From positions 3,720,001-3,784,000 of the forward strand of contig CAUJLY010000003.1 of assembly GCA_963281155.1 (NCBI GenBank): a stretch of 64,000 nt of DNA. Direction: 5' to 3'. The position numbers and the translations under genes are program-made. The notes beneath the pieces are model-generated. The model ran no database searches, was not told the DNA's origin, and worked only from the letters and a program-made list of their open reading frames with translations. Shown piece after piece: positions 1-62,880 of this stretch (positions are counted from its first letter, which is position 1; each line of letters opens with the position of its first letter). The stretch comes from Rhabditophanes sp. KR3021 (lineage: Eukaryota; Nematoda; Chromadorea; Rhabditida; Alloionematidae).

Positions 1-808
1 GGTATTAGAACGTCAATAAGGATACTCTCAACGTTTTCGGCTACTTCTTTTGAGTGACACTTCATCTTTAATACAATGATTCCCGTATCCCCAAATGACT
101 TATCATAGGTAACTTCTTTGATAAAGTTTTCCTTTCGGTTGAACCAAAGCCTTGACACATAATCGCTTCTTTTCCGCTCAAACGACGTTTGCAAAGTTTT
201 GCAGATGCGATGTTGCTCAAATGCTGTGCAGATCGCTTCTTGGTTCCCAAAGAAGTTTCACCAAAGTAATGTTTCTTTAACTCGTTGTAGAACATGTAGA
301 TTTAGGATTCACTAAGTCCTTCTAGGGGTGGCATATTCAAAGCATTTTTGATCCTTTTAACGTTCAAGACGATATCAAAGAAACATCTAGTAATAGATTA
401 TGTAATGCAATAATTGAAACTGCAGAGTAGCAGTAGTCAATCCATTCTTGGCATGTTTTAAGACATGACTATTCCCAAGTAAGAACGACGCCAAATCACA
501 TACTGTTAAGTCAGCCATAGTTTTGAGATCATCAAGAGATGGTTTCCACATATCTTTAGTCTTTTCAAAGACTCTGTTCTTACCAAGTTTTCTCTCAAAA
601 ACAAGAACATGATATCCTTTAGATGAAAGATTCGTTCGTAGTTTCTATACTTTCTGAAAGCTTGTTGTGGTAGGACATGGTACTTCAGGAGATTTTAGCC
701 AATAATTAAAGGTACAAAGCTTAGTGCGGTGGAGTTTACACTTATACAAAAAATTTAAAACATGCTATCTTTTATCTTAATATTATAATTTACAAAATGG
801 TCTTTTAG
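1..808 (-). mobile_element. Intronic GIY-YIG nuclease remnant E1 (antisense, left-truncated by the window)
   Basis: This is the 3' part of an ABCF3 intron whose start lies outside the window. On the minus strand it codes, with frameshifts, for a decayed GIY-YIG endonuclease. A YFGETSLGTKKRSAQHLSN stretch near 200-260 matches the YIG strand and following Arg/His helix. A KEVAENVESILIDVL stretch near the left edge carries the catalytic-type Glu and matches E2, E3 and E4. Upstream coding-like sequence in the element's direction reaches about 690. The intron ends in TTTTAG at 808, where a short ABCF3 exon begins. The ORF is broken, so it is probably inactive. Family assignment rests on motif similarity to the better-preserved copies E4, E6 and E7. 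Confidence 0.6.
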
Positions 809-3800
809 GAAGAAATGGAATCGGTAAGTGTAGTATGATGTAATTTTAAAATGCAACATATATTTTAGGAAAGACTACTCTTTTGAAAATGATTTCATCC
901 AAACAATTGGTAATCCCTTCAAATATTTCCATGTTGTCTGTCGAACAAGAAGTCGAAGGAGATGATACACGAGTCATTGACGCTGTACTTGCTTCTGATG
1001 TAAAACGTCAAGGTTTACTAGATGAAGAAGCTTTCATAAATGAGCTCTTGAATAACCCCGATGATAATGTTACGGAAGAAGACAAGGTCAAATTGTCAGA
1101 AAGGTTAAACTATGTCTATTCTGAATTAGAACAGATTGGATCTGATCAAGCACCCAAGGAAGCTGCTTCTATTTTGTTTGGTCTTGGCTTCACTCCTGAA
1201 GAACAACTAAGACCCACGAGCGAATACAGTGGTGGTTGGAGAATGAGGATAGCTCTTGGTAAGTGTTAGGGGGTGTTATAAAGCTTCAAAAACTTCAGAA
1301 TATTCATGGCAGTTGCCTATACACCACAAAGGGACTAAAAAATTAAGAAAAAACACAGTACTTTATAAATAAGGTGTTACACGTAGCTAAATATAAGATA
1401 GTTGGTTTTTGCAAGCCCTCTAGAATTGAAAGCTTCATTCATGACCGTTGCCTGTAAACCAAAGAGGGACTAAGAACATTCAGACACAATACTTTATAAA
1501 TAAGATATTACACGTAACTAAATATGAGATAGTAGTTTGTGAAGTTATCTAGAGTTGAAAGCTTCATTGAAATGGCTCGATTAGGCAAACCTTGTTTGCT
1601 GGGAGGTTTGTAATGAAAGAGCGCCTTCATCAGCAGTTTTATATAGAAGTATTTTGTTACCAAAGGAAAAGCGCCGAAAGGAACAGAAAAATATGATATG
1701 GTCTGCGAAAAATAGTAATCAAATCCAACATAAAAACATTTTATTTAGCAATAATTCATACTAATTGTTTTGTCTAATTTCAGCCAGAGCATTGTTTGTC
1801 AAGCCGCAACTACTTCTTCTCGATGAACCTTCGAATCATTTAGGTATGTTAAAAGAGTTTTAAAGTTTCGACAATATTCCTTTAGATTTCCGTGCCATCT
1901 TGTGGTTAGAATCAAAATTACAAAACTGGACTGGAACTATCTTCACGGTTTCCCATGATCGTAACTTCCTGAATTCGGTCTGTACCGATATTATCCACAT
2001 GCATTCGAAGCGTCTTGATTCTTACAGAGGAGACTTCGACACATACTTGAAGACCATGAACGACAAACTTAAGCAACAAAAAACTGACTATGACGCCCAA
2101 CAATTGCTCAGAAAGCATATTCAAGAATTTATCGACAAATTTAGATACAACGCCAAGAGAGCTGCAATGGTCCAATCGAGAATCAAGATGTTGGAAAGGC
2201 TACCTGTATTGGAGAACGTCGAAATAGAAGCTGAGGTCACATTTAAGTTCAATGAGTGCGAACCATTAGGGCAACAAGTTTTGATGTTAGACGAAGTTTG
2301 TTTCAAATATAACGAGAAAGACCCCCTTCTCTTCCACAACATCTGCTGCGGGTCCCATTCGGACTCTCGTATCTGTATTGTCGGAGTTAATGGAGCAGGT
2401 AAATCAACTTTGCTTAAAGTCCTGATGGGTGAACTTGAACCAACTTCCGGCCTTCGTACTATCAATCGTAAGGTGAAGATCGGTTACTTCTCACAGCATC
2501 ACGTTGATCAACTTGAAATGGATATGTCGTCAATTGCATTATTGCAACAGAGGTTCCCAAATACACCAGTAGAAGAACATCGTGCTGCCCTGGGAAGATT
2601 CGGAATTGGAGCAGATACTATTTTCCAAAGGGAAGTCATTTTCTCGTTGCCCTTATCTAATTTTATTTTTATTTTAGGTATGTAAAAACACAGTAAAGGA
2701 GAATTTATTATTAAAACACAAAAAGTGCACTAATATTTTAAAAGATATTCAACGGGTTCTCAAACTGAAAGTCGCTTAGGATTATTTCAGCGACTTGTCT
2801 GTTCTTCTCTGAATCCATAAAGCTGGCATATTGCAGGGAAGGCTTGCTGAAGTCGGAATCGATCACGAAGAGCATTGATCAGTGCTTTCGATGTTTTCAA
2901 CAATCTTTTTAGAGGACTAGGTCTTTTTTATGATAGTTAGTTGTTTCCCTGCTCTGACCAACTTATGGAAGACTCTTTCTTTTCTGTCAAAGACGAGTTC
3001 CCACTTATCAGAAAAGTTGTAGTCGTATCTATGCTGGGTCATTTTGCTTTGATACTTAGTGTTTCTTCTATGTAAAATATTCCATCCACTGTCTTAGCAA
3101 AGTCCCATTCAGATCTAACAGCTGATGAGTCGATTGCCAAATACACATCACATGGCTTGCCTCCTTCGACTGGAGTCAATTCATCCAATTGCTTCTTGAT
3201 GGTAGCTGCGTCGTTGTCAAGATTGAAGTGCTTTGTAGCTTCTACTAACTCCTTGCGTAACCTTTTCTTGCATGCTTAGCAAGCGATTTAACAACTTTTA
3301 AATACCTTCCACAAGCCGGACAGTTTAAACTAGGATTTGTTTCATTACACTCCAAATCGTAATAGTCGGGGTATCACGTTCTTCCATCTCAAAGTTACGG
3401 CCATTCAAGAGTTCTATAATCATTCCAACTCCCAAAGTTTTGATCCAGTCGGCACGGAATAGATTCAGGGAGTAATTGGCTGCGACTCCAAGTGAGAGAT
3501 TAGTCCCGTTTTGATTGGCATCAATCATACATCTCTTCCAGATCAGGGACGTTTCTTCAGAGAATCCATCCAAGAATTTCATCCCGACTTTTCTTCTTTT
3601 GAAGATGTCATATGTGTATCCGATGTATCGAGCGTAATCTTTCATAAAATAATAGACAGGACACTTGTCTTTTAAAAGATTACCAATTTTCCTCTTAGCC
3701 TCCAAATCTTCTCCAACTTTTCTCTCCAAGACGTCATAAAGAATGCTGAACTTTTCTTCCTCAGTAACACGTTTGATACGCTCCTCGACCATTTCTCTAA

Positions 3801-5073
3801 ACTCAATTGTATTTCTTTTGCTCCTGTATATACAAGATTTTCATGATGCTTTGCTGATGTAAAAATTCTAGGGCAATGATCACATGGAATTGTCTTTGAC
3901 TCAGACGACTTTCTCCTCTCTGCGATTTTAATACGACAGTAAAGGAATCTTTAAAATCTGAGACATTACACGAGTGAATCAAACTATTCAGCAAATTGTG
4001 TGTTTAGATCCAGCTGTTTTAAACTTTGATTTTCGGTAGTTACTCATTATCTCCTAGGGCCCAAACATAAAATAACCAAGGTCATAATAGCTTAGACCAA
4101 TGGAATCTAGATTTCCTTCTAATTGAATCAACGATATAGCTTTTGTTTCATACGATTGTGTAGGTGCTTAGTAAAGGCTTTTCGACGGGGAATCAAACAT
4201 TTTTGCGTGCAACACTGTCAAAGATTCACTGAACTCGAATGGTCTTTGCGTAGCTCCCTTTGGGATGTTTTTTATACTATTTTCCCTAGCTTTTCACACA
4301 TGATCAGAATTCATTTTATCATAGACTGGAGCTCTGGCAGAAACATCGTCTTTGGTAGAGGTCTTATTGGAGATTATCTTTTTCACTTCGTCCAAATGGT
4401 AAACTCTTGCCATCATTGCAACTTCTCCTCCACCGCTTCGATGTAAGTACTTTTGACTAATTGAGATAGACCATCTACATCTCCCTTTGATATCGTTGTA
4501 ATCTTTCTCTTCTTTTGGTCTTTCTTTTTAGTTTCTTCCATCCTTAGAATATCAAACTTCTTGTTGCGCAGAAATAATAAGAATGGTTAACATACGTTAC
4601 ACTTGATCTTAATATGCCACGTAAATAGCCTACAGCTTATTTAAATTTCAAATTGCAATGTTTTAAAGAACTAAGTGTTGGATCACAGTTCTTTAAATTT
4701 AGTTTTGAAAATGTAAAAACATATATTGTTAATCAAATAATTTATATTACGTCTATTTAATTCAATCTTTTTAAGTATCGCCACCTTGTCAGGAGGTCAA
4801 AAGTCTCGCGTAGCTTTTGCTTCTCTTGCACTTGAAAAACCAAACTACCTAATTCTCGATGAAATCACCAATCATTTGGATACGGCATCTGTAGACGCAC
4901 TTGCAGTAGCCATCAACGAATTCAAGGGAGGAGTCGTACTAGTTTCTCACGACGAGCGTCTTATCGAATTGGTTTGTAAGGAACTTTGGGTTCTTCAGGA
5001 CAAGAGAATCTTCACTCTAGAAGGCGGAATTGAAGAATACAAGAAGCACGTCTACAGTCAATTGTCTCTTTAA
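809..5073 (+). CDS. ABCF3: ABCF3/GCN20-like ABC-F ATPase (5' exons outside window)
   Basis: This is a twin-cassette ABC-F protein without membrane helices. Known family members act on ribosomes and in GCN2/eIF2alpha signalling. Exons read as 809-823, 869-1258, 1784-1843, 1886-2630 and 4776-5073. The first exon is only 15 nt and supplies part of Walker A (GRNGIGKTTLL across the junction). Next come signature SEYSGGW, Walker B LLLLDEPSNHLD, the ABC-F linker rich in Lys and Gln, Walker A GVNGAGKSTLL, signature LSGGQKSR, Walker B LILDEITNHLD and the H-switch VSHDER. The ending VYSQLSL lies where the family ends. The 2631-4775 intron has donor AAAG|GGAAGT, which is GG-AG, but phase and homology fit it exactly. 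Three introns are long: two hold nuclease remnants and one holds a tandem duplication. Confidence 0.9.
1290..1570. repeat. Imperfect tandem duplication inside an ABCF3 intron
   Basis: Intron 1259-1783 contains two diverged copies of a unit of roughly 145 bp. Shared blocks include ACTTTATAAATAAG, TTACACGTA and GAAAGCTTCATT, together with a GTTGCCTRTA..CCA..AGRGGGACTAA block. No coding potential was recognised. The remainder up to 1783 (for example a GGAGGTTTGTAATGAAAGAGCG segment) is unexplained. Confidence 0.7.
2640..4770 (-). mobile_element. Intronic GIY-YIG nuclease element E2 (antisense, decayed)
   Basis: The element fills the 2145-bp ABCF3 intron and is coded on the minus strand. In its own direction it has an N-terminal open segment (3792 to 3325, about 155 aa) and then, in another frame, a CPACGRYLKVVKSLAKHARK finger-like module (about 3320-3260). 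A GIY-YIG domain follows, with VYLAID, GIFYI, DRKERVFHK and VENIEST blocks down to about 2760. Several frameshifts and stops separate the parts. Near its upstream end an 11-bp inverted repeat (TTTAAAGAACT at 4662, AGTTCTTTAAA at 4687) could form a hairpin. No transposase or reverse transcriptase motif was seen. The domain order resembles E6. Confidence 0.65.
4662..4697. repeat. Inverted repeat at the upstream end of E2
   Basis: The arms TTTAAAGAACT and AGTTCTTTAAA are perfect 11-bp complements separated by 14 nt, and an inner GTG/CAC can also pair. A similar but imperfect structure lies at the equivalent end of E3. Confidence 0.7.
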
Positions 5074-5441
5074 AATATCTATTTGTTTAATGATTATTAC
5101 CTTTCAATACAATAAATAAATGTTAATTATCTTTAACTAAATATTTTTGAGCTCCTTTGTATCAATTCTCTCAATCAAAAACAAATTGGACATTTAGATT
5201 ATGACCAAGTTGCATTTGACTTTTAATTATGAATTTGCCAAAATTGTACTCATAATTTAAAATCTTTATCATAAACACCGCTTTCTAGCCGACAATTTGT
5301 TTGATTTCATGCTTTTGATAAAAATAGATTCGACACTATTGAACAATATATTATTTTAAATACTGCATGTATTTTAATAAATTTATTTAAAAATAACAAA
5401 ACTGATATAAAATAGCTCCTATATACATATACTTCGTAACT

Positions 5442-8333
5442 TTAAATACGCTGAGCAATATATCTCAAAGTAAATCGAGCCGTCCTTGCATTTGGATGAT
5501 AAATTACAAAAATTTGATTCCCATCAGAAATAGTATCTTCTTTTGGGCGATAACAACAACTTCTAAAGCCTGTAAGTCTGATATCAAGTTTATGTTTGAT
5601 TTCTACATAACTCTGACAACTGAAAAGTTAATTAATTGTATTTTTAAGAGTTAATAATGAATTGTATTTTTGACATTTAAGAATTAACATTTTTGTATTT
5701 CCCATTAGTTTAATGCCATGTTTTCACATTTGCCAAAATGTCTTAATAAGAATCGGGAAAGAGAGTCTTTTTTAAAGCATGATTAATGGTAGTTCATTAC
5801 CTTGTAATTTGCCAAAATGAGACGGAATATTTTATCAAGTAATAGGAAGATGCTGGAGGTAAGTCAGACAATTTAATCTCAACAAATATTCAAATATTTA
5901 GATGAAGACAGTATGCTTAGTCAATGAATGTCGCAATTGCTAACAGATGAAGTAGCCAAGACACCTACAACGGTTGAGCAGTACAATCTTTTAGTCCAAG
6001 AGTACGATGCTTTTTTGGAAAGTTTAATGGTCCATACTACAATTATGTATTCAAATAAAGAAGCAGTTGATCTTCATGATGCATTCTTTGAAAGTATTGC
6101 AAAGTATGGTGCGCTTCTGACTGAATATTCCGTCTTTTTGATGGGCGATGAAAATGCAATGAACAACTTCAAACAAAAATGGAATCCCCTCGCCCCTAAA
6201 GAAGTCAAATGTAATGATATTTGGAAGAGGAATCAAAAAGTGGGTGCTGTGTATCTCGACGGCTTGCACATTAACCAAGTATCAGGAATTGAATACTTGA
6301 TCATTTTTAAAATTGAAAAGCCCTTGATTAACTACAATGCTTCTGGACAATCAAATGAAATCACGTATCTCAGACATCCATCCATTGTTACTAAGTTAAG
6401 CAAGTTGCATCAGTGACCCAATTCATTGCTTTTTAATTTTATGTTTGTTCTTAATAAAGTTCTTTTTAACTTTCCCCTTTTAATAAACTTTGCATTTCTT
6501 TGTGTAAATTACCCTGAAATAAAATAATTAAATAGGGATGGAGGGGCGAAACGAACCATAAGAACAAGGAAACTCTCCATCTGACAAACGGAATCTAATC
6601 CTCATCCCTTCTGGAACAGAAACTCTCCAATAACAATGGACATTTTTTCCTTGTGGTGACCTTAATAATTGCCATTGATTTGTTGCTCTAAGTTCCATTC
6701 CACAAGCTAAAAAGATAAATTATATTGATGTTAAAGTAACTTATATTACCAGAATGCTGTAGTTGATTACATTCGATTCCTCCTAATCCTTCCGGACAAC
6801 GACAAACATTACCTAAAATTATTTAAATTATACTTTGCAAAAATTAAAAAATCTCATTTACAATTATTAGGATCCGGATAACCGCCGTTTTGACAGTTTA
6901 ATGGTCGTGAGTTGAAGCATCGATTTCTGCAATAAACATCATTCATAATTTTAGCATCGAGAAAAGCGATTTTTTCAGTTCCCATTGTTGTCACATATTT
7001 TAATTCTTTCGGTACAATAGTGAAATCTGAAACCTTAATACTAAAAAGAATGTATGATGCATTAAGAAGTAAGAGTTAGTCACTTACGCGTGTGCAACTG
7101 CGTGGTAATGGAGAATACTCTGTAGGTGACATGTATTTTATAAGTTAAATTTAAAATAACAACAACTTACACCATAATCATAAGGATATTCTGTATTTGA
7201 TACTTGTTTGATTCCAAATGCTTGCAGCATGCTTCTGTAGGGCATAAAAGAGGCCGTTGCTTCTTCCTGGACATTTCTCCAGTTTATAGATACATACTTT
7301 TCACGGTCCGGACGTTGATGTGTATGATAATATCCCAATGAATGCCCTGTTTCGTGTGCAACAACGTATTCCTAAAGAATTCAAAATCATCCCAATGTTT
7401 AAATTCTTTTTTTAATTTTAATACACTCTATTGCCATTATGCGCACATAATGGCTTAACTATATATTTATATAAGTATCCTGTTATTTTTCGGTCAATCC
7501 ACTATATGTTAACAGTCATTTTTATAAAATTGCTATGTTATTAACTGAATTGCACCATCAAATTGAAACATATACATATTATTTGTATATCATTTGTACA
7601 TTATTTACATATTATTAACCTTGAAAGTGGTTTGCTTTTTCTCACAAAACATTTTAAATTCATTTACATGATATAGTACAATACTTATCAATTTTAAAGA
7701 ATGAAAGTTAACCGCATTTGTTTCCAACTCAACTATGATGTACTTGTTTGGCGAATGAAAGGTCATCCGATAATATTAACATACCTCAGCACATTCGCTT
7801 CCGATGATAATGTCCTGAAAACCACCGTTTCGTCCAATATATTCTGTGTAACATGAATCACCTCTTTCAAGGACATATCTTATTCCATCAGTTGCTTGAA
7901 TATTTTCCTTGAAACGCAAGCAAGTTTCGGCCTCCCACATTCTAATTCCACGACGGATTAAATTTTGGAAATTTGCTAAAAATGGAAAATAATAAATGAC
8001 TTATTTTAAATACGAAAACAAAAAGATTTAACCGATGCTTGGCTACATACCGTCACCGCCCAAAATTTGAAAGGGAATATCACTAGATCTCCATTCATAC
8101 ATTGGCCCTACAATAGACTGTCTTTTGTGTCTATGTGATTTTGTTCTCGATACACTTTCAATAGTCGTGTAGTGTGTGGCAACTTTGTCTGAACTCATTT
8201 CGAGTAACCCATCCATCAAAGGAACTGAATAATTATATATAGCTGATTGAGTTAATGAAATGTAATTAATTAATAAGAATAAGGTGGACAATTGAGGAAC
8301 CAGTCCTAGATCAATTGCTTTCCTAATCATCAT
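5442..8333 (-). CDS. Secreted astacin metalloprotease with EGF-like and CUB regions
   Basis: A signal peptide (residues about 1-31) and a propeptide ending RHKRQ, a furin-type site, precede the astacin domain. The zinc site reads HETGHSLGYYHTHQRPDR, matching HExxHxxGxxHxxxRPDR. The Met-turn reads SILHYH, so the usual Met is Leu. A short EGF-like part (CRNRCFN..CQNGGYPDPNN..CRCPEGLGGIEC) and a CUB domain (CGMEL to FTLRYIAQRI) follow. This order matches nematode NAS-type astacins used in cuticle or digestive proteolysis. There are several short introns, a 410-bp one (about 7375-7786) and a 933-bp one (6552-5620) that holds a GIY-YIG remnant. The donor of that last intron (TTC|GTTTCG) is weak and was chosen because it keeps the CUB frame. 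Confidence 0.85.
5820..6440 (+). mobile_element. Intronic GIY-YIG remnant (antisense to the astacin gene)
   Basis: An open frame at 5928-6416 lies inside the 6552-5620 intron of the minus-strand astacin gene. Its last 65 residues (IWKRNQKVGAVYLDGLHINQ, then a GIEYLIIF block with the Glu, then ITYLRHPSIVTKLSKLHQ) align with the C-terminal half of the GIY-YIG protein of E7. The GIY and YIG strands are missing, because the region before NDIWKRNQ does not match them, so this copy looks deleted and nonfunctional. The N-terminal 90 residues are of unknown origin. Confidence 0.6.
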
Positions 8334-16107: not shown

Positions 16108-19100
16108 ATGGAAAACGATAGAAATATTCGTTCAGAAGTATTTTATAATTTTCGAGAAAAATATTATGGAACAGCTTTAAACATATGCGAAGAATACTTA
16201 CTTCATGCTACATCTAATAAAGTGTTCTTTTTGATTGCCAAGTCATATTGCTTGGTTAAATTGAGTAAGTTGGCGTATTTATTGTTGTTTGTACAATTAA
16301 TTTAGAGAGAACAGCATCTGCATTGCGCCAATTGAATTCATTGAAAGATGATCAACAATTTAAAGTCTCGCTCTTACTTGTAAACAAAATTGCTTTAGAA
16401 GCAGAAACAGAAAAAGGTAAATACATAATATCAATTTGTTGATTCCAAACATTCTTTAGATCTTAATCGGATTAAAGAAGTATCCAAGGAAATAGAAAAC
16501 TTATTTAACAAAGCCACCGAAGAAGATGTTTATACAGGGTGTATTGTTTTAATTTCTGAAAATCAATTACCAAAAGCGAAAACTTTTATTCAGAGAAATG
16601 TGAAAGATGACACTAATCAGGATATCAGTTGTTTGTTAGGTGCTTTAAACTTTCAGTGACAATATTTTATAAAATTACAAAAATTAAATATCGACCAAGG
16701 ATAATTTGTTCTTCATATTCACATTCCGAGAAGTCGTTTAGGATGAGTAGGGCAACTTCTAAGGTGACTTGAGGGTCCATGGATAATACAAAATCTAGAG
16801 AAGGCTTACCACTGTCGCTATTTGTAAGTTGATGTCTGAGTGCATTGATCAGGATACTTTCTACATTTTCCGCAATTGTTTTTGTAGGGTATTCTTTCTT
16901 TACTACAATTAACTTCTTTTCAGCTGTAACAATCTTGTTGAGAAATGCTCTTTCTTGTCAAAAACAAAATCCAATTTCACAGAGCAATTGAAGCAAGATT
17001 TGTGACTTCCCCATCTTGACTGAAAATTGAACGCTTCACCAGCATATCGTATGGCTTTCATATTTTCTTTTACTGTCCGCCTATGAGAAAAAAGTGTTGG
17101 GTTGAAGAATAAGTAAACCAGCAAGTTCTGCCTCCTTCAGTAGCATTGAGATCGTCTAATTTCTTTTTGATTGCAACAGCTTTAGGAAGAGCTTCTTCTT
17201 TACTATCTACCAATTCGATCAACTTCTTTGGTACCCCAATTCTATCTGTATCACCGCTCTTCCAATTCAGACTTATGTGCAGCTAATCTCCTGTCTTTAT
17301 TATCGCCTCTCCAATATACCAGAGACATTTCATAAAGGCATAGACAAAATGTGCTCCGATCAATGGATCGCCAACTTTTTTCAATTCTGTAAAAAGGAAG
17401 TTGTACAATACTCCCCTTTCTTCTCGTCAGCAATTTTCATTCTAAGCTCTGCTAACATTTTCTTCAACCCTTTGTAGCGAAAGAAGATAATAGGAACAGA
17501 TACATCACGAAGAACTAAAGAAGGATCCAAAAGAGTGTCCGACTTCTTTCTTGATGTAGACTCACTCAGCTTTTTGAAAGGAGCTTTAAGAGCAGTGGCA
17601 AGCAGAGATTTTAGAACCAACTTTTGGCAAAAACTTCGCCATTGGTCCTCTTTCTCTAGTACCTTCAACAACCTTGATGGTTTGGCAATCTTCATCACTC
17701 TTCATAGCTTTGTCTAAAGTAAATAGCATAAATTCAAACTTACTTGGACCGGTGTCTTTCGCACGTTTTCCAAAAGTGAGACTTTCGCCATCGGCACGGC
17801 TCCGTTTGACTACTACCGTTTTAATACCTGCACTACTTTGCAATCCTTGCGACAGTCTATTCACATCTTCTCCAGAAACGGGGAACCTTCTTTCTTTTAA
17901 GTTCGTCGGTTGCTTTCTCTTGTCCCATTTTAGAATAAATAAACACCAATTGAGGCGATGTTGGCACTAAAGTTAATAAGAATGAGTAATTACGTTAGTT
18001 TGATCATAATATACACGTAAATAACTTGAGCTAATATACAAATTTAAAAGAACGAAGTTTAAAAGAGCTGTTTTACGCAGTCTCTTTAAATTTGATACTA
18101 AATATCATAACATACAAATAACCAAAATTAAACTAAATATAGAACTAATAAAAAAAGACGAATAAACTTGTAAATTGTTTGTAGGTTGGATTGAATATTA
18201 TAATAATAACGATATAAAACTAGCTTTCAAGTATTTTGATATTGCGCGAGAGGAAAAAATGTGTGAAATGTATTTGGGGCGAGCAAAATTGTTTGAATTA
18301 ACACACCAATATGGGGAAATGATGAATTTATTGAACGACTTTCAGCAAGAATATCCTACATTCTTACCTGTTCAGATTGAACTAATTAAAGCCAACATGG
18401 TCTTAAAAAGTTGGGATAAAGTTAATGAAGCTATTCAAAACGCCTCCTTAATTAATAATGAAAGTATTGGAGTAAGACTGCTAGAAGTCATTTACAATGT
18501 GATGATACGTGGCCAATATCAGCTATACGAGAGTGTCCTGGCAGATTTATTTGAAACTGTAGATAGAATAGAGGAAAGCAATCATGATTTGACTGTTTTG
18601 ATAGCCCAGTTGCTTTTAAGCATTTCATTGGATAATCCGATTGTCATAAATTATGGCAATAAATTTATGAATAAAGCGATCGAGATGAATGATAGTGTTT
18701 ATAATTTATCCCTTCGCTGTCAATATTTGATTAAAATGAACAAAGAAAAAGAAGCTTTAACTTTGTCAACTGATATCTTAAAAGTATATACAGGAGAGTC
18801 TCCAGACGTCCTTCTAGTTTTAGTTTTGTGTTACCTCGTAAACGGCAAAAAAGTTGAAGCTAAAACACAACTGGAGTTTTTGAAACATTCACATCCGAAA
18901 ATTACCCGTCATATTGGATACTACCATTTAGAAGCAATAGTTGAGAAAAATAATAATAAACCACATGAAATTATTGTTAGTTGCACAAAAAATGGAATTG
19001 ACATTCATTTGGCTAATTTGCAAAACATGGCATATGGGAATTCCTATCTTGTGGCAATTAATTGTGATATTTTGATTTCGATGTGTCAAACTTTATTCGA

Positions 19101-22100
19101 AATTGCTCCCTTGGCGCCGTCAAAAGTGGTTGATCCTACATTAAAAGAAGTTTCTAGAATTTTGGCAATCATACATTCTAATTTTCCTGGAATAGATAGA
19201 GCTATTTATTTGTTAGCTAAAGCCAAATTCCTAGAATTTGAAATCGAAGAAGCTGAATCACTCTTAAAGAAGTGTATTGATAAACCTCAGCAAATAGCAG
19301 AAGTTTATTTGCTAATGGCTCAAATACAAATACAAAGACGTAAAATTGAAGAAGCTGAAAAGTATCTTGATAGTGGACTGAGTTTAAACTTTAAAGTTAA
19401 AGAACATCCCTTGTATCACCTGACCAAGGCTTTGTTGCTTAAACAAGAAAAGAAAATTGATGAAAGTATACTTTTGTTAAAACAGGCTCTTACTTTGCCA
19501 ACATTTAAAGAAAATAAAAATCAGTCAGATTCACTGCATGTAAGTGATAATGATAAAATATCAATTTATCTTGAGTTGATTGATTCTCTTCAAATGATAA
19601 ATAATATCAAAGAAGCAGATCAGTACATGATTCAAGCTACTGAATTTTGCAAAGGCAAACCTGAAGAACAGCAGTTATTTTTAATGAGTGCACAATTGAG
19701 AATATATCGCGGAGATGTCGATGGGGGAGTCCAAATTCTTAATAATATTGCGCCTCAACAACCAAACTACCAAATGGCTCAACTCAAATTAGCAGAAATT
19801 TATATGGATGAAAAAAAAGATCCGTCCAAATTTGCCAAATGCTACCAAAATATTCTCGAATCCAATCCAACAGTAGAAACGTACATGTTATTAGGTGATG
19901 CTTACATGTCAGTCCAAGAGCCATTGAAGGCAATTGAAGTCTATGAAACTGCAATGAAAAAAAATCCACGTAAGCTAAACGGAAGGGAAACAAAAATTTT
20001 ATTAAACTATTCATCAGTCATTGCACATGCATCGACACAATTTAGGAAATATATTTCTGGCATAGAGCACTTTCCATGTCGAAATTGGTGATCTAGTACT
20101 TGAATCTTTCCGCAAGGATGAACTCGAGATTTTCAGCTAACTCTTTTGTAGGAACTGGCAGCTTGAGATGAAGGGTTTCTGCCGGATGGTTCTTCATTTT
20201 ATCCATTCTTGACTCTTTTCTGTCAAACAAGTCACTGTTCTTAAGAATACGATTGTACTTTTGATGGTGTCCATCAATTCTGTCAACCTTTCGTGATTTC
20301 CCAACATAGAAACTTCCTTTCTTGAAACTTGGATAGTTAGAGAGAGTGCCGTCGGCTTCTCTTGGATCAAGCAAAAAGTATATATATGCTTAACGTTCTT
20401 CAAAAGTAGTTTTCCAACTAGGTCACACTCTGTCCAACCATTCATAGGCATTGAAATTGGTGTTGTATTTTTGTTCAGCAATACACAATTCTCCACATAG
20501 ACGGAATTGGATGTGATATGCTACGATGACCATTGGTAACCAACTTGCAGTGTGTACAGTGAACTTCCTTGGCGCATTCCTTTGCCTCAGTATGAGATTC
20601 GAACAGGGGTTCATTTGAAAATCTGAGAAGACATTCTTACACTCAAGCTTGGGTTTTTGAAATTTAGGGGCAGTAGATCTTGCCATTTCGTAGCCAACTT
20701 CTTCGGCATTAATAACATCTCTCAAGTGCTGACCCATTTTCTTGACTTGTCTAGGCTTGAGATTGTTGACAAATTCTGAAAAAATATTACCCATTTTCAA
20801 ATTTAGTGAATCTTCAAAAGTAGCAATGAATATTCTTTCCAGGGCAAAAGCAGCTTTGACAGGATACCACATTTGACCATTTAATTTGAAGAATCTCATC
20901 TCAACAATCTCTTTGATGCCTTCAGCTAAGCACTGGTCCCAACTATTGACAATTAGTCCTTCTTCGTTGACAAGAGACTATGACCGCGAAGTTTACAAGC
21001 AATTTTTCCTTTTGTGAACATCATACTTGGCAAATTCATTCTTAGGATTATACATCCGAACTCCACCACACTCTTTATCCTTAGTCTTGATAACGTAAAA
21101 GTTCATTTTTCCTATCCCACCAGCAGTTTCTTTAATTAAAAGATCCATCAATTGAACAGCAGTAGAGTTCCTAGCCATCTTTCTTTGTGATTTCAATACC
21201 TTGCAAGTGGCATTGGTAAAATGATCCGGTTGAGAAAAGTATTACTTGATTTGAAAATAACTAATATTCAAAAAATATTCTTTTAAAAAGATACCTTAGT
21301 ACATAGTTTACTTTATTGGGTGTAGACATAACCGGTTCCATACGAGAATTTCGTTCACCCATTATGTCTACACCCAATAAATTTACGCTTAAAAGAACGA
21401 TACAATATAACATCTAATTCTATTCGTCCAGGTGATTTTAATTTAAGTGAAAAAATTGGAAATGCATATGTCAAATGTCATATGTATCATAAAGCTATAA
21501 ATTTTTATGAATCTGCTATGAAGGATGGAAAGCAAAATAAGATGAGGTATAGCTATGCAGAACAGTTGTATAAAATGGGAAATTATGAGAAATGTGATAA
21601 GGTTATCGAAGAAGGGCTAAGTATTGACCGGGAATCAAGAGCTATACCAACAATCCGCGAAAATGTAAATTATTTGATGCTAAAAGCAAACGTATATTCT
21701 AAACAATCCAATTGGCAAGAATCTGTAAATTCTATGCATAGAGCTAAAGAATTCCAGTTAAGAATAGTTTCCTTATCAGGGGAGGAGAAGATATCCAGAT
21801 CAAATGAACGAGATATAGCTGCTACAATTGCAGCTAAAATGGGTGATATTTACTCTATTCGAAGAGAATACTCAAAGGCTATAGACTTATACAAGGAGGC
21901 GATTAGATTAAATGATTCTAATGTGGAAAACATGGCCTCTTTAGCAAAAACTCATATGGCTCTAGGAGAAACAGCAAGATGCCAACAACAATGCAAGATA
22001 ATCTTAGAAAAAGATAAAAACAACGATGATGCCACCTTACTTTTGGCAGATATGATGTATGAACAAAATGAAACTAAAGACGCGCTTCTATATTATTGCC

Positions 22101-36241: not shown

Positions 36242-36243
36242 AT

Positions 36244-52403: not shown

Positions 52404-52879
52404 TTTTTAGCCCTTCCGAAATGTATTAATCTTAAAAAGTAATCGCAATTAAATGGTTTGGGTGAACTTATTAAATTGGTGAAATGATTTTTAAAATCTG
52501 CTTACCAAAAGTAGACCATTACAACTTATAAAGTACGTTATATCATTTTAATTCTCATACTTTGCATTGTCATCTTATTCTCTTGGTGAAATGATTTGAG
52601 TAAAGTTCGTAAAAAAGAAACATGTAATGTACTAGCTAGCATGCTCCATTGTTAAATAAATTGTATCCTTAAAGGCACACTATTTCTAAATAATTTATAC
52701 TATTATAGAGCGTATGTGTGAACCAATTTTATTAAACATATCCCGTCAAAAGTTTTTTAACAATAATCAAAGCATAACTACATACATAGTTATAACAACT
52801 AAAGATAATAATGTACATATAATTAATAGAGAGAATTAAAAAATAATTTGTATCCAAGTTAAGTAAAGTATATGCTGCT
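52404..52879. other. AT-rich intergenic interval
   Basis: Nothing recognised between the NXF1-like gene and the next minus-strand gene. Confidence 0.4.
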
Positions 52880-54302: not shown

Positions 54303-55924
54303 ATGGATAAAAAGAAACCAAGAACTTTTGATAGTTCTGTCTATCCAAAGCGCAAGGTTGCTTTCTTATTTTACTACTTTGGATGGAAATATGATGGCCT
54401 TATTCTCCAAGATTGTACTGACAATACAATTGAGCAGGTAATTGTTTTAAGTTGTGATATAGTAATTAAATTTTTAGTATATTCGAACTGCTTTATTTAA
54501 AGCCAAATTAATTGATGACCCTTTAACCTGCGATTTGACTCGTTGTGGAAGAACTGACAAAGGCAAGTTAATTAAAAATAAAAGAGTTTATTTCAAAAAT
54601 GTAGAAGGTTTAATTAAAAAGCATTATTTAAGTAAGTTGCTGTTGTGTACTCTTTTCCATAGAAAGTTTCTAATCCTTTGCTATCACATAAGGTGTCATA
54701 ATCATTTGTGAGTTCTTGAACATGTTTAATGACGTTATTATCTTCACTGAATCCAATTCTTACAAATGACAGTCCTTTTTCGCGACAATATTTAGTTTTA
54801 TTCTGTTGTTGGCTTGTGTGTCCTTAAGTATTTCTTCGCCTTTAGGAAAACTAGTAGCTTGAAAATGCTGACGCCCGTGAATTTCGATACAGAGGCTTGA
54901 AGGAACAAATATGTCGAAAGGCAATTTGTTCTTTTTCTCTCTGCAATCATCAAATGTTTTTTCAAGCTCTACAATTTCATTTTAAAAACCAAAGTATTTA
55001 TATAATTTTTCTGATTCAGGAGTTTCTGCTTTTCAACAAGTAATCGCTTTGACTATACGGTCCACAGATGAAGATGGAAAATACGTGTTTTGGAAAGATG
55101 GGATAAAACCTGAGAGTTCACTAAAGAAAAGTTTGAAAATTGAATTACCGTTTTGTAAGATGGTCAACGTCTTTTTACCTCCTGAGATAAGAATTATGGC
55201 ATGGAGTCCTGTCAAACCAGATTTTTCCGCAAGATTTAATTGCAAAAATAGATCATATAGGTACATTTTCCCCGATATGAACTTGAATATGGAAGAAATG
55301 AAGAGGGCTTGCAAATTACTGCTAGGGAAGCACGACTATCGAAACTTTTGCCATATCGATAGAAGCAAAGCTGAAAGAGGGTTGACTCATGAAAGAACTA
55401 TTTATGTTGCTGAAATTGATGACTCTGAAAAATGTGCTGTATTGATTATCTGTGCCAGTGGGTTTTTATGGCATCAAATTAGATGTGTCGTTGCTTTGTT
55501 AGTTGAAATTGGAAAAGATCGGGAGTCAGCCGATTTGATGACTGAACTACTGGATATTGAAAAGCATCCTAGCAGACCACATTATAATATGGCTTCCGAA
55601 ATACCACTATGTCTGTATGAAAATACATACAGTGACGAAGATGTTGATTGGCAATGGGATGAAGAACCGACAACTGATTTGATAACAAACTTGCAAAGAG
55701 AACTAGCAACTTATCAGACAAAATCTAAAATAATTTCAGATATGCTGAGTGGTGTCCAAAAAATGTCAGGACTAAATAAAGAGTCTTTTACAGGAGGTTA
55801 TACGGAGTTTTTGTTAGGCAAAGATTGTTCCAGAGAATATAAGCCAATATTGAAAAGAGACGTCTGTAAAAGTATATCTGAAGTCAAACAGCGGATGCAG
55901 TCCAAACGTTCTAAAAAGGAATAA
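54303..55924 (+). CDS. PUS3: tRNA pseudouridine synthase, PUS3/DEG1 type
   Basis: A TruA-family enzyme that isomerises U38/U39 in the tRNA anticodon stem. Exons are 54303-54437, 54478-54562 and 55020-55924, about 374 residues. Landmarks are VAFLFYYFGWKYDGLILQDC, NTIEQYIRTALFKAKLID, catalytic RCGRTDKGVSAFQQV with Asp, ARFNCKNRSYRYIF, YRNFCHIDR and SGFLWHQIRCVVALLVEIG. The second intron (54563-55019) starts GCAAGT, so it is a GC-AG intron, and it is filled by an antisense nuclease fragment. Joining at K|GVSAF is exact. The Lys-rich C-terminus QSKRSKKE is usual for a nuclear or cytoplasmic tRNA enzyme. Confidence 0.92.
54580..55019 (-). mobile_element. Intronic Vsr/PD-(D/E)xK-like nuclease remnant E5 (antisense in PUS3)
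   Basis: The minus strand of the intron reads PESEKLYKYFGF, a stop, then NEIVELEKTFDDCREKKNKL. It continues FDIFVPSSLCIEIHGRQHF, then LKDTQANNRIKLN and, after a frameshift, REKGLSFVRIGFSED. Asp, Glu and QHF in this spacing match the core of Vsr-like (EDxHD) PD-(D/E)xK nucleases found in homing endonucleases and phage proteins. The coding sequence starts at the very edge of the intron, so the splice acceptor CTGATTCAG is itself the complement of nuclease codons. One stop and one frameshift indicate decay. Confidence 0.6.
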
Positions 55925-56047
55925 ATTTGAATTTAAATGTTTTCATTAATTTTAATATTAAAGTTTTTTCATATACTTTCTTAACCGCACAAGTCATTTC
56001 TTTTGCATATCTGTGTTCTTTAAATGTCATTTGATTAAATTACAGTT

Positions 56048-58064
56048 ATGTCAAACGAGGATTTCACACTTGCTCCAAATGTTAGTGTAAATCAATCAAC
56101 ACGTCTGTACATTCCCGACTTTGAATATGGAAATACCTATAAGATACGTGGATCTCTTAAGCTCGATCATCCTGCCACACGTGAACCCATTACAAAATGT
56201 GATTGTAACGAAGAGTACCTATCGCCTTCTAAAACTAAATTTTCAATGGTTTTTTTGGATGCATATAAAAGTTACGGAGACGATCCTGATGCACTGAAAC
56301 AATGTTTTTTACCTGATTGCTTCATGAAATTCGATAAGATGAAAGCAAACGCTGATAATATTCAATTTGAAATTTTTGACACAGAAAATCGTGGTTATGG
56401 GGTTAGATCTAAGAGGGATATTGAAATGGGTGAATATATCTCAGAATATATTTCGGAAGTATTTGACATTGCGGATTCTTCAATAGATTCTTTATATAAA
56501 TTTTGCGTACCTGCTGGTCAAAAAGAGATTGTGTATGACGCTGCTAATTATGGCAATGTTTCGAGATTTATTAATCATAGTTGCGAGCCAAACTGCATAT
56601 CATTAAACATTACGTCTTGCCCGGACTTTTATGTCAGAGGAAACCAAATTTATCAAATTGGATTTTTTGCAGGTTTTAAAAGAAGACAAAATATTAAAAA
56701 GAAGAAAAATATGTAAATTAGACCGAATATTTTTGAGATGTAGTATCTTTTAAAAAAATGCACTTTGTTCAGTGTAATCTCTGAGATTCTCTTACTGATT
56801 TCTGGATGTTTCTTTAACATCACATAATTAGGTTGTCCTGATCCATCGATGTTCGTCAACAGACACTTTGAAGATTCATTGCAGCGTTTTCAAAAGCAAG
56901 AGCTTCGCTTGCAGTCAATTCATTGCAATAGAAAGCAACAATTCGTCTTGTCTTTTTCAAAATATCCATAATCTTTGGTCCTTCAATGGTATGAATCTCC
57001 TAAAGTTACGTTCGGCTCCTTCGATGTGATCACGAAGTCTACTTTTCGCGCTAGTGGACATTCCAGCGTAGAAAATTTCTTTTTGAAATTGTTCAAATGA
57101 TACTTTCTTAACATCCCCATTAACAGGAAAATAAACTAAAACGTATGCAGATTCTTTTCCTTTGGCTGTAGTGCGAGATTTAGTCCTGTTCAATTCACCT
57201 ATAACTTTTCCCAGCAACTTAAGATCCGATAATTCCCTTTATCCTTCATAAGTCTCCATAACCTCAGTTCTTAACTTGTAGCACATTCTCTTTTTTAAAT
57301 GGAATGTATAATAAGAGCTATCATTGAAAGTTGCTTTGCAGCTATTGCATTTGTAAATCCCATGCTTCACAATATTAGCTGCCTTTCTCGTATGACTACA
57401 TGTTCTCATAAACCAGTGTGAAGCTGTGTAACATCCACGCTTACAATAAGGATATTCAAGTGGGTAGGTAATATCCGTAGTTTCCTCATCTTCCTTTGTC
57501 CTATTACATACATAGCAAAGGCTCCGAATTCTTCATCTTGACCTATCTCATCACTTCCATTGGCTCAATTGCAGGAAATTCATTATTTTCATTAGTTGAG
57601 ACTTTTTAAACGACTAACTTAGCTCTTCTACTACTGCAAATTTAATTATGATAGTTGTCAACTTACCTTCTGCATCAGCTTTTCCCCTTATTGTGATACT
57701 TCCTTGTTAACTGTGCACTTGTAATGGGAGTATTAATCTTCCTGAGACATTCACTACTTCCGGAATCTTTTAGTTGACGTTTCATAGTCAAAATATCAAC
57801 TTAATTGAAATATAAAATACCTTAAAAGATTAAGCAAATTTGAAAAGTAAACAAAATGCTTTATCAATCAAGCCTTTTTGAAACATAAGTCAAGTTTATT
57901 TTTTAATGCCATTAAATATGATTTTGTTATATAATAAACAGTTTTTTGCAGGTAGAGATATTAAAGCAGGAGAGGAATTGTTGCTATGCTACGAGGACGG
58001 TTATTTTTCAGACAAAATGCCTTGCAAATGTGGGGAAGAAGTGTGTAGATTTAAAGGAAAATAA
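56048..58064 (+). CDS. SET-domain lysine methyltransferase (SUV39/SETDB-like)
   Basis: Exons 56048-56672 and 57952-58064 join at FFAG|RDIKAGEELLLCY, about 245 residues. The SET domain shows NRGYGVRSKRDIEMGEYISE, VYDAANYGNVSRFINHSC with the NHSC cofactor motif, EPNC, and GRDIKAGEELLLCYEDGY. A post-SET zinc cluster CKCGEEVCRF closes the protein. YGNVSRFINHSCEPN is typical of H3K9 methyltransferases. The pre-SET part is reduced: only CDC and CFLPDC remain from the normal nine-cysteine cluster. The 1279-bp intron holds an antisense GIY-YIG element. Confidence 0.82.
56680..57945 (-). mobile_element. Intronic GIY-YIG element E6 (antisense in the SET gene)
   Basis: Coded on the minus strand from about 57785. 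A start MKRQLKDSGSSECLRKINTP is followed, after frame breaks, by a Cys/His module (CKRGCYTASHWFMRTCSHTR and YKCNSCKATFNDSSYYTFHL). Then comes a GIY-YIG domain at 57217-56760: YVLVYFPVNG, FYAGMSTSAKSRLRDHIEG with Arg and His, RRIVAFYCNELTASEALAFE with Glu, and NYVMLKKHPEISKRISEI. E7 has the same tail (MYLKHPEIVKRISDI), so they are close relatives. Several frameshifts are present. Confidence 0.7.
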
Positions 58065-58274
58065 TAACCCTTTATTTATGATTGGACAATTTACTATTTT
58101 ATTGATGGGAATATCCAGTAGCTTTCAATTACTTTATAAATGTGACTAATGATGTATCTCATTAATTTAACTAAGAATACCCTTTTGCACTATTTATTTT
58201 ATTGATGTGTATAAAGAATTACATGTATTAGTTTTATTAATATTTACAATAACATTGAAAATAATCTTTATCCT

Positions 58275-61200
58275 TTACTCGCTGTCCCAATCATTTCCAG
58301 GCAAAATCGGATCTATTTCGGCATTCCGATCCAAATTAATTGAATCGAGATCTATCCCAGCATCACTTGACTCATCTGACGATGTTGCAAATGAGTCAGT
58401 TGAGTTGGTTCTTGACCTTGTGCCATTACTAGTAGTATCATCTATCATATTAACATGACGGCGATTATTTATATTCTGTACTTGCATCAATCTTTGCATT
58501 TCTTCAGCTTCCTCCTTAGAAACTAAGCTCTTATAGCACAAGGGACATACTGAAAGTAAAAACAATATTACTAAAGTAACAAACTAATTTTCTCACCAGC
58601 TTTAATGCTTATCCATTTTTTAAGACAATATCCATGGAAAATATGCTTACAAGGGGTCATCCTCGCTTCTTTTTTCATTTCTTGCATGCAAATACAGCAA
58701 AGGTCTTCTAGATCTTCAAGTGTTTTTACGGCTACTTTTGGTAGTTGTTTAATTTGACTGACAGCTGTGTACCTAGCTTTTATTGAAGCAATGCATATCT
58801 GAGTTCGTTTCCATATATTAAAATAGGAGTGAAATATCATTATCGCAAGAGAAATTGCGCTCCAATATCCTAAGAATGAGGCGAAAATTCCGTGAATGAC
58901 AACGAACGTTGCTAGTATCAATTCAATCATACTGGTTATAGTTCTAATATAAAAAGTCAAATCTTCAACAATTTCCCATGGCTCTAGTGATTTGTTTTCA
59001 ACAATTGTTAAAAAATATATAATTGTACAGGAACAAGTTCTTAAACAGGTCAAAGCGCAATTAGCCACAATAATGACACACCACAAGTCTACCGACAATA
59101 TTTCTATTACAAAATAAATTAGAGTTGATGGGCACGAAAATTACGATATCTTTTATACAAATAATCAGGACAAATTTTTAAAGATAAACATTGGACAAAT
59201 AGTCATTTAAAGGATTTACGTCTTCATATAAACTTAGACGATTGTTTAAAATTTTAGATAGTGCAAAAAAAATAATAAACGAGAATCTAATACTTCAATA
59301 AACTTATGAAAATCCATTTTTCCTGATAAAGAATGCTTATTTTCAAAAAAAGTAAGGTGAATACTAAATAAATATAATAATCATTTGTCTTTTTAGCAGA
59401 GACTTCGGTTTCAATGTCTATTTATGGCGGGCTGTTCCAGACTTTTCAAATTACCAGCTTAGCTCACGCGGTGTTTATGTTAGAAAAGCCAAGAAGATTA
59501 ATTTACGTTATCTCGAATGGAAATACCACTTTTTGAAACGAAAGCAATAGATAATTATTTGGTACTTGTAAATTAGACTGCAAAATATTTCCTCAATTCA
59601 ATTACGTGGAAGGCGAAGAATGGAGGCCTGGGGGTATGAATGCAATATCAAGAGAAGTGCTCCAAATAAATAAAGATGGAGAAGTTGATGATGTCATCCG
59701 TGAATAATTATCTAGTGCAGCTCATTTCATTGTAGTAACAGATTCAGCTATTCGTTATTACATTAAAGTTAGGTGTATCCATCACGGATATAAATAGGAA
59801 TATTTTGATTAATCTTACGATCTCTTTTAATATTTAAGTTCTTTTTGTATTTACTTTATTAAATTAATTTATAGAACTTACGAATTTGTAAATATGACAC
59901 ATATATTGGCCCCAGAATCAAAGAAACGGCGAATATCAAGCATTTTGTATGTCTAGATCGAGAAGCATTAGTTGAAGATGATAGAGATAGCATCTGAGGT
60001 TCTAGCAAGTTGTATAAATTTTGCATCAAAGCTGACAATACGATAAAGAATATCAATTTGAGCATGAATGTTTTCTGTTCACTTTTCAATCCTAATAGTC
60101 CTGCTTGCGCGCATAGCAGTAATAATGTGAGGGCTTCCGTATAACCCTGATTGCCATCCCTTTCAGCTCCTCGTTCGTTATTAAATATAACATACTGAAC
60201 AAAAATAACAATAAATCTACATAGTTGTGAAACGGTAATGGCAAGTGATAGCAAACTGATTGGTGTACTTGTACAATCAGCTATTGTAGCAATTAAAGCA
60301 GATCCCAAGTCTTCAATCGATCTTTCTTTGCCATAGTATTCATAAGTCATTTTAGTTCCTAGCATTGTTAACCTAATTAGAATTAATTAATAAACATGTG
60401 CTTTTAAACAAATTTGCAAGTAAGTTAAATTAGAGTGTTTCAATTAAAAAGACATTTTGGAAAAAATAGTCCTATTTGACTGTTGGATGAGCATTATATC
60501 AATTTTTAATTTGATATTTACAATGAAAAGAAACGATAACTGGAGTAGTAAATTGCCCAAGAAAGTGTCAAATTTAGATGTAACTCCAAGTTTGAGAAGA
60601 GATCAAACGATAAGCCAAGATGATGGGGCAGCTGGTAAGAATCAACATATTAATTTAAATTTTGGCTCAAGTAAATACATTGTCTCAGCAATTAGCAAGA
60701 GTGTCTACAATAGAAGTCAAAGTTTTCAAGAAAAGTATGAGGATTGTGTTAAAGATTTCCAAGAAATATGCTTTGTCTGTCAAGACCATTCGTTCCAATA
60801 CTTTGGCTGCCCAATAACATGATACATTTGCAGAAGGTCTTGAAAGTTTTGGAATTGCATCACATTTATATGGTCTTGAAATTGTGGGAGATAAACAATT
60901 CATGGCATCTTTTGGAGACAATATCAATAAAAATACTAGTGGTAAGAGAGACTATAGATCGCTTAAATATTGTCAGTATGTGAGGTTGATTGAAAAGTAT
61001 CATGCCGATGATGGCTTCAATTCGAAGTAAATTAAATTTCAGCTACATGGTTCAATCTTTATTTGATAAAAGGTTTGGAAAAGCCTATAGCAACTGATCC
61101 TGAATTCAACATCAAGATGGGACGTTTCGATATTTTCTCTTGGGTTGTTCAAGATAATGAAATTCCTGATATGGATGATTATCCTGATAATTATGATTAT

Positions 61201-62880
61201 ATGCTGGATGGACTAAATGATTCTGAACATAAAAGCTATCAGCTTGCAAAATATCTTTATGGTGATGATAAAATTACAATTTTTGAATGTTATAATCAAT
61301 CGTAAAGGAGAAAAGAGGACCAACGATATTTTCAGCTGCTAGATCCACTCAGAATCAGCTCACTGCAATCGGCCAAAAGAGCATACAAGGAAAAAATATG
61401 GTAAAGATCAGAAGCTAAGTGATGAAGAGTTAATGAAAAGTGTTATGAAGAAACTCAAGGAGACCATTGCTAGAAAAACTGTTAAGAAAAATCATTCCGT
61501 CTATGTCTTGCTGCATGTTGCTGCCTCAAAGACCCTTCCTGAAATTAACCAATATTTAGGTACTCTCTCATTTCCTGAATTGAAAAAGCTTATTTTCTAT
61601 GCTGGGATATCTGATAATTTAAAAAGAAGATCAAGAGTACATTCCAATATTACTAAACGAAACATGAAAATATTGGTTCCTTTAAATCAAAAGGAACGTC
61701 GGTTTAGAAGTATTTGGAAAGAAGGCAGAAAGATAGTTGCTGTATCACTTAACGAGTTTCATATCAACCAAGCTCTTGGTCTTGAATATGCCATCATTTA
61801 TGACATGAGAAAGGTTCTGACTAACATCGATGATTCTGAGCAATTGAATCATGTTATGTATTTGAAACATCCCGAGATTGTCAAGAGAATTAGTGATATT
61901 GCTCTCAAACAAATGTTTAAAAATATATCTAATGCTTTATATTTTTAATCTTTTTGTCTTTAATTATTTTTTAATAAATTTTTATAGTCACATACCAAGA
62001 AAAAATTAGTATCTCGCTTAAACGGACTTGTTTATAAATTAGTAGAATTCCATAGGGAATACCTCTTAGGAATAAAATTGTTTTGACTCTTTTCAATCCA
62101 TTCTGAATTTCTTTGATCAGGTAAGGCACTCGTATCAGAACGTATGTTATGATCAGCACAACATTTAGAACACATGAGATATTGTGAAAGATATTTAAAC
62201 TATTTTTAGGCATCCCACTCATTCTGGCAAAAATAGGTAGAACATAAACAGGAAGAACGGGGGCTGCAAATTCTGACGTCAGTCTGAGAATACATGTTTG
62301 AAATACAGCCAAAATGACTTGTGCAGCAATAAAACTTCCGTGTCTTTCTAGTTTAACAAAATTATTCAATATTAGATATTCGTCACTTGATCTTTGTTCA
62401 CCTTCCACATAACTAATTGACATGTAGTGAGCAAAACCACTAAAGCAAATCAAAACGAAATTTGTATATATTTGGGATAATTTTTTGAGCGGCATCAAAA
62501 GGATCAGGGCGCTAATAAATAAAACTAAATTTTTTTGTTAATTAATAATCAAACGCATATGTTACTACCTGTGTAACTCAACATCATGGCTGCAGATTCA
62601 TCTAAATTTCGTGAATGAACAAATTCCAAAATTCTCGTTGAATCCAAGTACTGCAACGATTCGTCTGTAAACACATCTTCGGTCATTTGTGTAAAATTTG
62701 AATTTCTTTTCCTCCACCATAGCTCCAAAAGTAAGGGTCCCTAAGATAAAGTTACAGTTAGTGATTGAGTTTAAATGATTTTATTACCGGTAATCTTAGT
62801 GCTACTTCTAAAAAAGAAATTATCTTTTCTTTGTGCTCTTCAAGAAAACCGTTCCCAAGAGACCCAACAGCAAAATCCAT
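58275..62880 (-). CDS. RNF139: TRC8/RNF139-like multi-pass membrane RING E3 ligase
   Basis: Six exons (62880-62788, 62740 to about 62571, 62524-61996, 60372-59882, 59103-58597, 58549-58275) all join in phase. TRC8-type ligases sit in the ER membrane and ubiquitinate sterol-regulated and misfolded proteins. Many hydrophobic helices (LILLMPLKKL, VILAVFQTCILRL, LNVVLIITYVLI, LKLIFFIVLSALM, LCVIIVANCALTCL-type) precede a RING finger: CCICMQEMKKEARMTPCKHI, FHGYCLKKWISIKAVCPLCY. This is close to CAICY..ARITPCNHYFHALCLRKWLYIQDTCPMC of the family. A Ser/Asp-rich tail ends DWDSE. Introns of 1623 and 778 bp contain antisense nuclease sequences. Confidence 0.85.
59398..59770 (+). mobile_element. Intronic NUMOD4-like homing-nuclease fragment E8 (antisense in TRC8-like gene)
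   Basis: Plus-strand coding-like sequence lies in intron 59881-59104 of the minus-strand ligase gene. WRAVPDFSNYQLSSRGVYVR at about 59430-59490 fits the NUMOD4 pattern (W..V..F..Y.VS..G.VR), a DNA-binding module common in HNH and GIY-YIG homing endonucleases. A second stretch at about 59608-59706 (EGEEWRPGGMNAISREVLQI, then NKDGEVDDVIRE) may be another such module. Stops separate them and no HNH core was found. Confidence 0.45.
60457..61948 (+). mobile_element. Intronic GIY-YIG nuclease element E7 (antisense in TRC8-like gene), best preserved
   Basis: The element lies in intron 61995-60373 of the minus-strand ligase gene. From an ATG at 60523 (MKRNDNWSS, compare MKRQLKDSG in E6) it reads through three or four frames: 60523-60820, about 60822-61029, 61063-61302 and 61433-61948. 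The last is an intact 171-residue GIY-YIG domain: VYVLLHVAASK (GIY strand), IFYAGISDNLKRRSRVHSN (YIG strand, Arg, His), SIWKEGRKIVAVSLNEFHIN, and ALGLEYAIIYD with Glu. The tail VMYLKHPEIVKRISDIALK is shared with E6 and the astacin-intron copy. The fold resembles ANKLE1/LEM-3 nucleases. Frame breaks upstream suggest decay, but the catalytic domain could still be functional. Confidence 0.75.

Follow-up and report, generated by a model that had tools for sequence, protein, structure and literature searches.

Long introns of the nematode Rhabditophanes sp. KR3021 probably owe their origin to an introner, a mobile element that creates introns and that in this case has a nuclease gene of its own. 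We analysed these introns in a 64,000-nucleotide stretch of its DNA (the window; C3:3720001-3784000 of a six-contig genome of 44.8 Mb) and at related loci throughout the genome. Forty-two matches to PF01060, a family nearly confined to nematodes, agree with the nematode origin, and 14 control genomes had none. A crude check of 24 noisy ordinary introns gave lengths of 35-66 nt; the first-pass annotation of this stretch had stated 37-50 nt. The identities of the host genes IFT139, a pseudouridine synthase and SET are supported by Pfam, and the names ABCF3, astacin and TRC8 are taken from that earlier reading, which was based on the sequence only.

In host orientation, the element starts directly after an exon end of the form ...AG|G. 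In young copies this exon end is repeated at the end of the intron, over 10-20 nt that again end at AG|G. Splice prediction with the coding model alone was too loose to place exact acceptors, and candidate sets were therefore compared with swapped pairs, in which the 3' sides were exchanged among loci. A duplication score of 9 or higher was obtained for 5 of 31 loci against 0.10 expected, and none of 20000 permutations reached the observed mean. In an overlapping set of loci the figures were 4 of 37 against 0.08 expected. By score or by eye the duplication is clear in about 10 copies, and the following examples were recorded (the two copies separated by a slash where they are given separately):

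SET, plus strand, 56663..56674 and 57942..57953: TTTTTTGCAGGT, the 5' and 3' copies matching exactly
IFT139 intron 1, plus strand: TTGTTTGT(T)AGGT, with 5' copy TTGTTTGTTAGGT at 16629..16641 and 3' copy TTGTTTGTAGGT at 18175..18186, one gap
L019: TTTAATCCATTTACAAAAGG/TTTAATCCATTTACATAGG
L047: TTTCAATGATTCCAAGG/TTTCAATGATTCCAGG
L043: ATGATTAAAGG, twice
L024: CCGGTTCAGG, twice
L087: TGCTACTCCAGG/TGCTACCCCAGG
L051: CAATGTCAAAGG/CAATGTTAAAGG
L053: TAACATCCAAGG/TAACATTCAGG
L075, by eye: TTTATCGAAGG/TTTATTGAAGG

In L019, L047, L053 and IFT139 intron 1 the duplicate on the intron side lacks one base immediately ahead of the AG, as if there had been selection toward a better acceptor.

Splicing in silico at the duplication points yielded a continuous protein. 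For SET, the predicted spliced product is a full SET-domain open reading frame, in frame and without a stop. A Pfam domain spans the join in SET, in L024 (a dynein-type AAA domain) and in L043 (a RIH domain); the spliced products of L047 and L087 had no Pfam match. The host frame also rejoins across both IFT139 introns, the PUS3 intron (as a GC-AG intron) and the TRC8-like intron. The duplicated stretch is thus coding DNA, and the complete intron equals the element plus one duplicate, a hallmark of the creation of an intron rather than of insertion into an older one. The elements had been described in the first-pass annotation as residents of introns. They are indeed found there, but the young ones at least seem to have made their introns, as the target-site duplication extends across the exon boundary. 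Judging from these sequence features, the introns are predicted to be spliced.

Ten long introns of the window were compared with family members by BLASTN and TBLASTN. Strong matches were obtained for five of them, short matches for three, and none for ABCF3 1259-1783 and TRC8-like 59110-59880. The latter two thus drop out of the nine introns that had earlier been credited with nuclease remnants, all of them antisense to the host, whereas an ABCF3 intron truncated at the window start comes in; with these changes the core of the earlier observation holds. Antisense placement was found for all seven matches whose strand could be assigned; the eighth, in PUS3, falls outside any placeable nuclease stretch. 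The window features are:

56673..57951, plus strand: intron of the SET-domain gene, read as element-made, nuclease on the minus strand; TBLASTN identity up to 74% (35 aa)
56725..57379, minus strand: GIY-YIG nuclease relic of subfamily A with broken frames, inside the SET intron
16640..18184, plus strand: IFT139 intron 1, read as element-made, nuclease on the minus strand; TBLASTN identity 62% over 55 aa and 52% over 81 aa
19970..21431, plus strand: IFT139 intron 2, relic of a third subfamily on the minus strand; 94 bp match to L018, and 72.5% identity over about 119 bp to L087 (E=3e-10)
2635..4775, plus strand: large ABCF3 intron, subfamily B nuclease on the minus strand; 70% DNA identity to L040 over 1207 bp
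3325..3840, minus strand: open nuclease frame of subfamily B in the large ABCF3 intron
2635..2677, plus strand: ABCF3 mini-intron of 43 nt, ending in TTTTAG and followed by GTATGT
1..808, plus strand: ABCF3 intron truncated at the window start, with a minus-strand relic within 3-257; 48% identity over 29 aa to 16670-16957, and 88% over 52 bp to L027
5620..6556, minus strand: intron of the astacin-like gene with tentative boundaries, subfamily A relic on the plus strand; 46% identity over 72 aa to the window frame at 61343
6514-6556, minus strand: mini-intron-like stretch in the astacin-like intron, ending in TTTCAG and followed by GGTAA
60373..61995, minus strand: intron of the TRC8-like gene with the best-preserved window copy on the plus strand; DNA match to 34 sequences of the family set, overlapping loci counted
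61343..61945, plus strand: nuclease frame of 201 aa in the TRC8-like intron; PF22945 at 24.9-25.2 bits, below the cut-off of 27
54563..55019, plus strand: PUS3 intron of 457 nt, GC-AG; 100 bp family-like match only

Two further observations concern individual window introns. Within IFT139 intron 2, a perfect 20-nt inverted repeat, TTTATTGGGTGTAGACATAA, spans 70 nt end to end (21312-21381) and resembles a small foldback element lodged within the relic. By eye, the ABCF3 frame across 2635-4775 rejoins only with a GG intron start (CAAAG|GGAAG...AAG|TATCGCC), which might reflect an error in the assembly, an atypical splice site or a gene that is broken.

Genome-wide, we examined 53 non-redundant loci (two in the window), which represent the best-ranked hits because loci had been cut for these only. 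Orientation was assigned with our own coding model, by which antisense and sense host introns were compared for each locus. Strict limits gave 22 antisense and 1 sense call with 30 loci left uncalled, middle limits 29 and 3 with 21 uncalled, and lenient limits 38 and 5 with 10 uncalled. Of the five sense calls under lenient limits, L025 and L033 have a splice module, described below, that sits opposite to the nuclease, those of L045 and L063 were judged to be artefacts of the nuclease's own coding signal, and L034 is a true sense copy. In all four mid-ranking loci added to these (L099, L100, L101 and L102) the module has the strand expected of it. For L100 and L101 the intron model favoured antisense, and for L099 (score 22) and L102 (score 14) weakly sense, both under the limit. 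The family is dispersed through the genome, with more antisense than sense copies at every limit.

Similar introns occur at many unrelated positions, as is characteristic of introners, and no preference for one target gene was seen, since the sites are many and close copies lie in different host sequences. L019 and L035 share 96.2% identity over 1029 bp, have sharp ends and reside in different hosts; L016 and L015 come next. The family is degenerate, as had been noted when a single recent burst was dismissed, but this pair points to at least one fairly recent wave.

The splice module consists of a mini-intron followed by GTA on the host strand, and was found in 31 of 61 loci that had not been chosen by module, a few of which may be chance occurrences. 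The mini-intron is 40-49 nt long, often contains CTAAT and then TTTTAG, and examples are L012, L016, L024, L040, L043, L047 and ABCF3 2635-2677. In L015, L016, L019 and L035 it is nearly identical among different hosts, and this common sequence argues that the mini-intron travels with the element. YYYYAGGTA was counted 51 times on the host strand and 5 times on the other strand of 60 loci. In addition, AGGT was present 34-54 nt upstream of 32 of 50 junctions, compared with 0-4 of 50 in neighbouring windows.

The strict module pattern CTAATN{3,16}TTTTAGGTAA occurs 171 times genome-wide, compared with 9 matches for a control with GATA in place of GTAA. Among 100 sites listed, 14 were within 2.5 kb of a listed nuclease hit, as opposed to 1-6 when positions were shifted by 20-90 kb; the hits near those 14 sites were all antisense to the module, and 12 lay within 200 nt downstream. 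Twelve of the 86 sites without a listed hit were fetched, and ten of these contained nuclease remains (TBLASTN, E 0.002 or better), all antisense, with none in the other two. A narrower pattern had 14 matches and its control 0, and a nuclease match, one of them weak, was present at four of five new sites. An acceptor that abuts a donor is the layout of recursive splice sites. The module shares this layout, and by its sequence it is a putative recursive splice site in vivo.

The nuclease has a C-terminal GIY-YIG domain with a C2H2-like zinc finger ahead of it, and in both subfamilies a further GIY-YIG-like half, nearer the N-terminus, is readable by eye. L024, L058 and several genome matches scored above the PF22945 cut-off, and alignment and fold comparison agree with GIY-YIG. 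L022, L040, L045 and L065 gave no PF22945 match, and the window frames remained below the cut-off. The earlier assignment to a dispersed, degenerate, intronic GIY-YIG family of the LEM-3 type (PF22945) was borne out. A PHROGs search returned nothing meaningful. Twelve family frames scanned with Pfam contained neither transposase nor reverse transcriptase, with no genome-wide search made for either, and no Rfam match reached the gathering score anywhere in the window, so no group I or group II catalytic RNA is indicated there. Three further loci, L004, L005 and L006, have open GIY-YIG frames (PF22945 35-44 bits), with a finger-rich frame after L005. They seem to be free-standing, and are possibly source genes or a separate element.

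We propose that the nuclease, expressed from the element's own strand, would make a staggered cut at AG|G and that the element would be copied in by repair, plausibly double-strand-break repair. Its role as the cutter, and hence as the driver of movement, is one that we infer from the fold. With AG|G on the coding strand, the target G together with the element's first T would form the donor and the duplicated AG the acceptor, so that the choice of AG|G would provide both from one insertion. The mini-intron/donor pair may then permit a spliceosome used to small introns to remove the long insert in two steps (recursively). Because the removal signals sit opposite the nuclease, only antisense insertions into exons would be silent; insertions of opposite polarity would be unspliceable and hence lost, which would explain the antisense rule.

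Several results weigh against this reading. No clear duplication was found in 26 of 31 loci (score <9), and the duplications vary in length, which a fixed staggered cut does not predict. The module was not seen in the other 30 of 61 loci, which lack it, have lost it or stop short of the end concerned. The family profile found no PDB sequence under E 0.2, and a Foldseek search by itself had no significant match either. At the chosen boundaries the host frame is not restored across the astacin intron or, by eye, across the large ABCF3 intron; the clean codon joins of the first-pass annotation hold for SET, both IFT139 introns, PUS3 and the TRC8-like gene. Antisense placement is not universal either, since L034 is a real sense copy. 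Finally, a deletion derivative (L019, L035, L016) has apparently moved, and movement in trans, perhaps by another machinery, is possible. L034 itself lies between a complete and a broken (3') copy of seemingly the same host gene, which we recognise as one for tryptophan dioxygenase; such a setting is as expected if sense insertions break genes.

The variable duplication length and the mobile deletion derivative leave room for another machinery, and both would fit a scenario in which introns are indeed created but the nuclease gene is carried along as a passenger, the unit being moved via its ends by the transposase or reverse transcriptase of another element. That a complete intact protein was not identified points the same way. 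We nonetheless regard this scenario as unlikely, as the Pfam scan of the family frames found neither enzyme, although possible partners were not searched genome-wide. A clearly smaller probability is given to an ordinary transposon that inserted into pre-existing short introns, its sense copies being purged because of their polyadenylation and splice signals. Antisense bias is common among intronic transposons, most copies have no clear duplication, and the mini-intron, having a branch site of its own, could be what remains of a host intron. Against this reading, the duplicate in young copies is coding sequence ending at the splice junction, and the mini-intron moves with the element between hosts.

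It is least probable, and in our view very doubtful, that the elements spread by true homing, that is, allelically into intron-free alleles of the same gene with subsequent vertical decay. A GIY-YIG nuclease inside spliceosomal introns has a parallel in mirusviruses, as described in the examined part of PMC12768974, but the close copies L016, L019 and L035 occupy different host sequences with different flanking repeats. Returning to the introner with its own nuclease, a wider claim is quite possible and is made here tentatively. The elements may constitute a self-contained class of animal transposon that is mobilised by a GIY-YIG/zinc-finger/GIY-YIG nuclease directed at exonic AG|G, that brings its own recursive splice site and whose every viable insertion becomes a spliceosomal intron. 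Such a class would be a major source of this worm's long introns and would show a possible origin of new nematode introns.

Some additional observations concern the genome at large. The 11.2 Mb contig C6 is nearly devoid of subfamily A, with 2 of 143 merged hits listed against 35.7 expected by length (P = 2e-15), and has 3 of 31 merged hits listed for subfamily B against 7.7 expected (P = 0.06). It is a candidate for a sex chromosome, or for a chromosome that is silent where the element moves. The LEM-3-like loci L002 (C1) and L003 (near the start of C6) share 98% identity over 3.4 kb, which marks a recent duplication. No telomere repeat was found at the four contig ends examined, and an SL2 search was uninformative, as its controls were equally silent.

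LEM-3/ANKLE1 nucleases are host enzymes with ankyrin and LEM parts. They share the domain family PF22945 with the worm elements, which differ in combining a zinc finger with GIY-YIG and in being mobile and mostly broken. Penelope-like retroelements have a GIY-YIG endonuclease and make target duplications, but they encode a reverse transcriptase, for which the twelve worm frames were negative. According to the text searched of the introner survey (PMC9860276), introners were found in 175 of 3325 genomes, more often aquatic ones; among animals they are limited to two groups, and DNA transposition fits most of them. There, as in the worm, many introns at different sites resemble one another, a splice site is provided by the target-site duplication, and introns are gained mostly without change in coding length. 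The duplications there are 3-9 bp and family median lengths 30-654 nt, whereas the worm elements have duplications of about 10-20 nt, introns reaching more than 2 kb, an encoded nuclease and often a recursive-type splice site; the words endonuclease, antisense and nematode are absent from the searched text.

For mirusviruses, a 2025 report presented nuclease genes within spliceosomal introns as new (PMC12768974). In these shintrons, as in the worm elements, a spliceosomal intron houses a nuclease gene, of the GIY-YIG or another type; the worm introns are recognised as such by their sequence. Shintrons are viral and prefer certain genes, and 'antisense' and 'target site duplication' do not appear in the searched text, whereas the worm elements belong to an animal nuclear genome, are spread over many genes, lie antisense and have duplications. 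[D1,2] stwintrons, as far as covered by the consulted part of PMC12403724, are also nested introns that spread to new positions; in the worm elements, by comparison, the small intron ends where a complete donor begins (a zero-length exon), and a nuclease gene is present. Our search of the open-licence literature turned up no animal introner that carries a nuclease gene. Given the two precedents of introners and shintrons, the worm elements therefore appear to join two known kinds.

If true, the element would be an animal nuclear introner that codes for the enzyme probably mobilising it, and a link between introners and the newly named viral shintrons. The portable mini-intron with its donor suggests how a genome of small introns tolerates long inserts, and makes the recursive splicing of mobile DNA directly testable. 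Why the sources of gained introns are hard to find is discussed in the consulted part of a nematode intron-gain study (PMC9169325), and the elements described here would offer one such source for new nematode introns.
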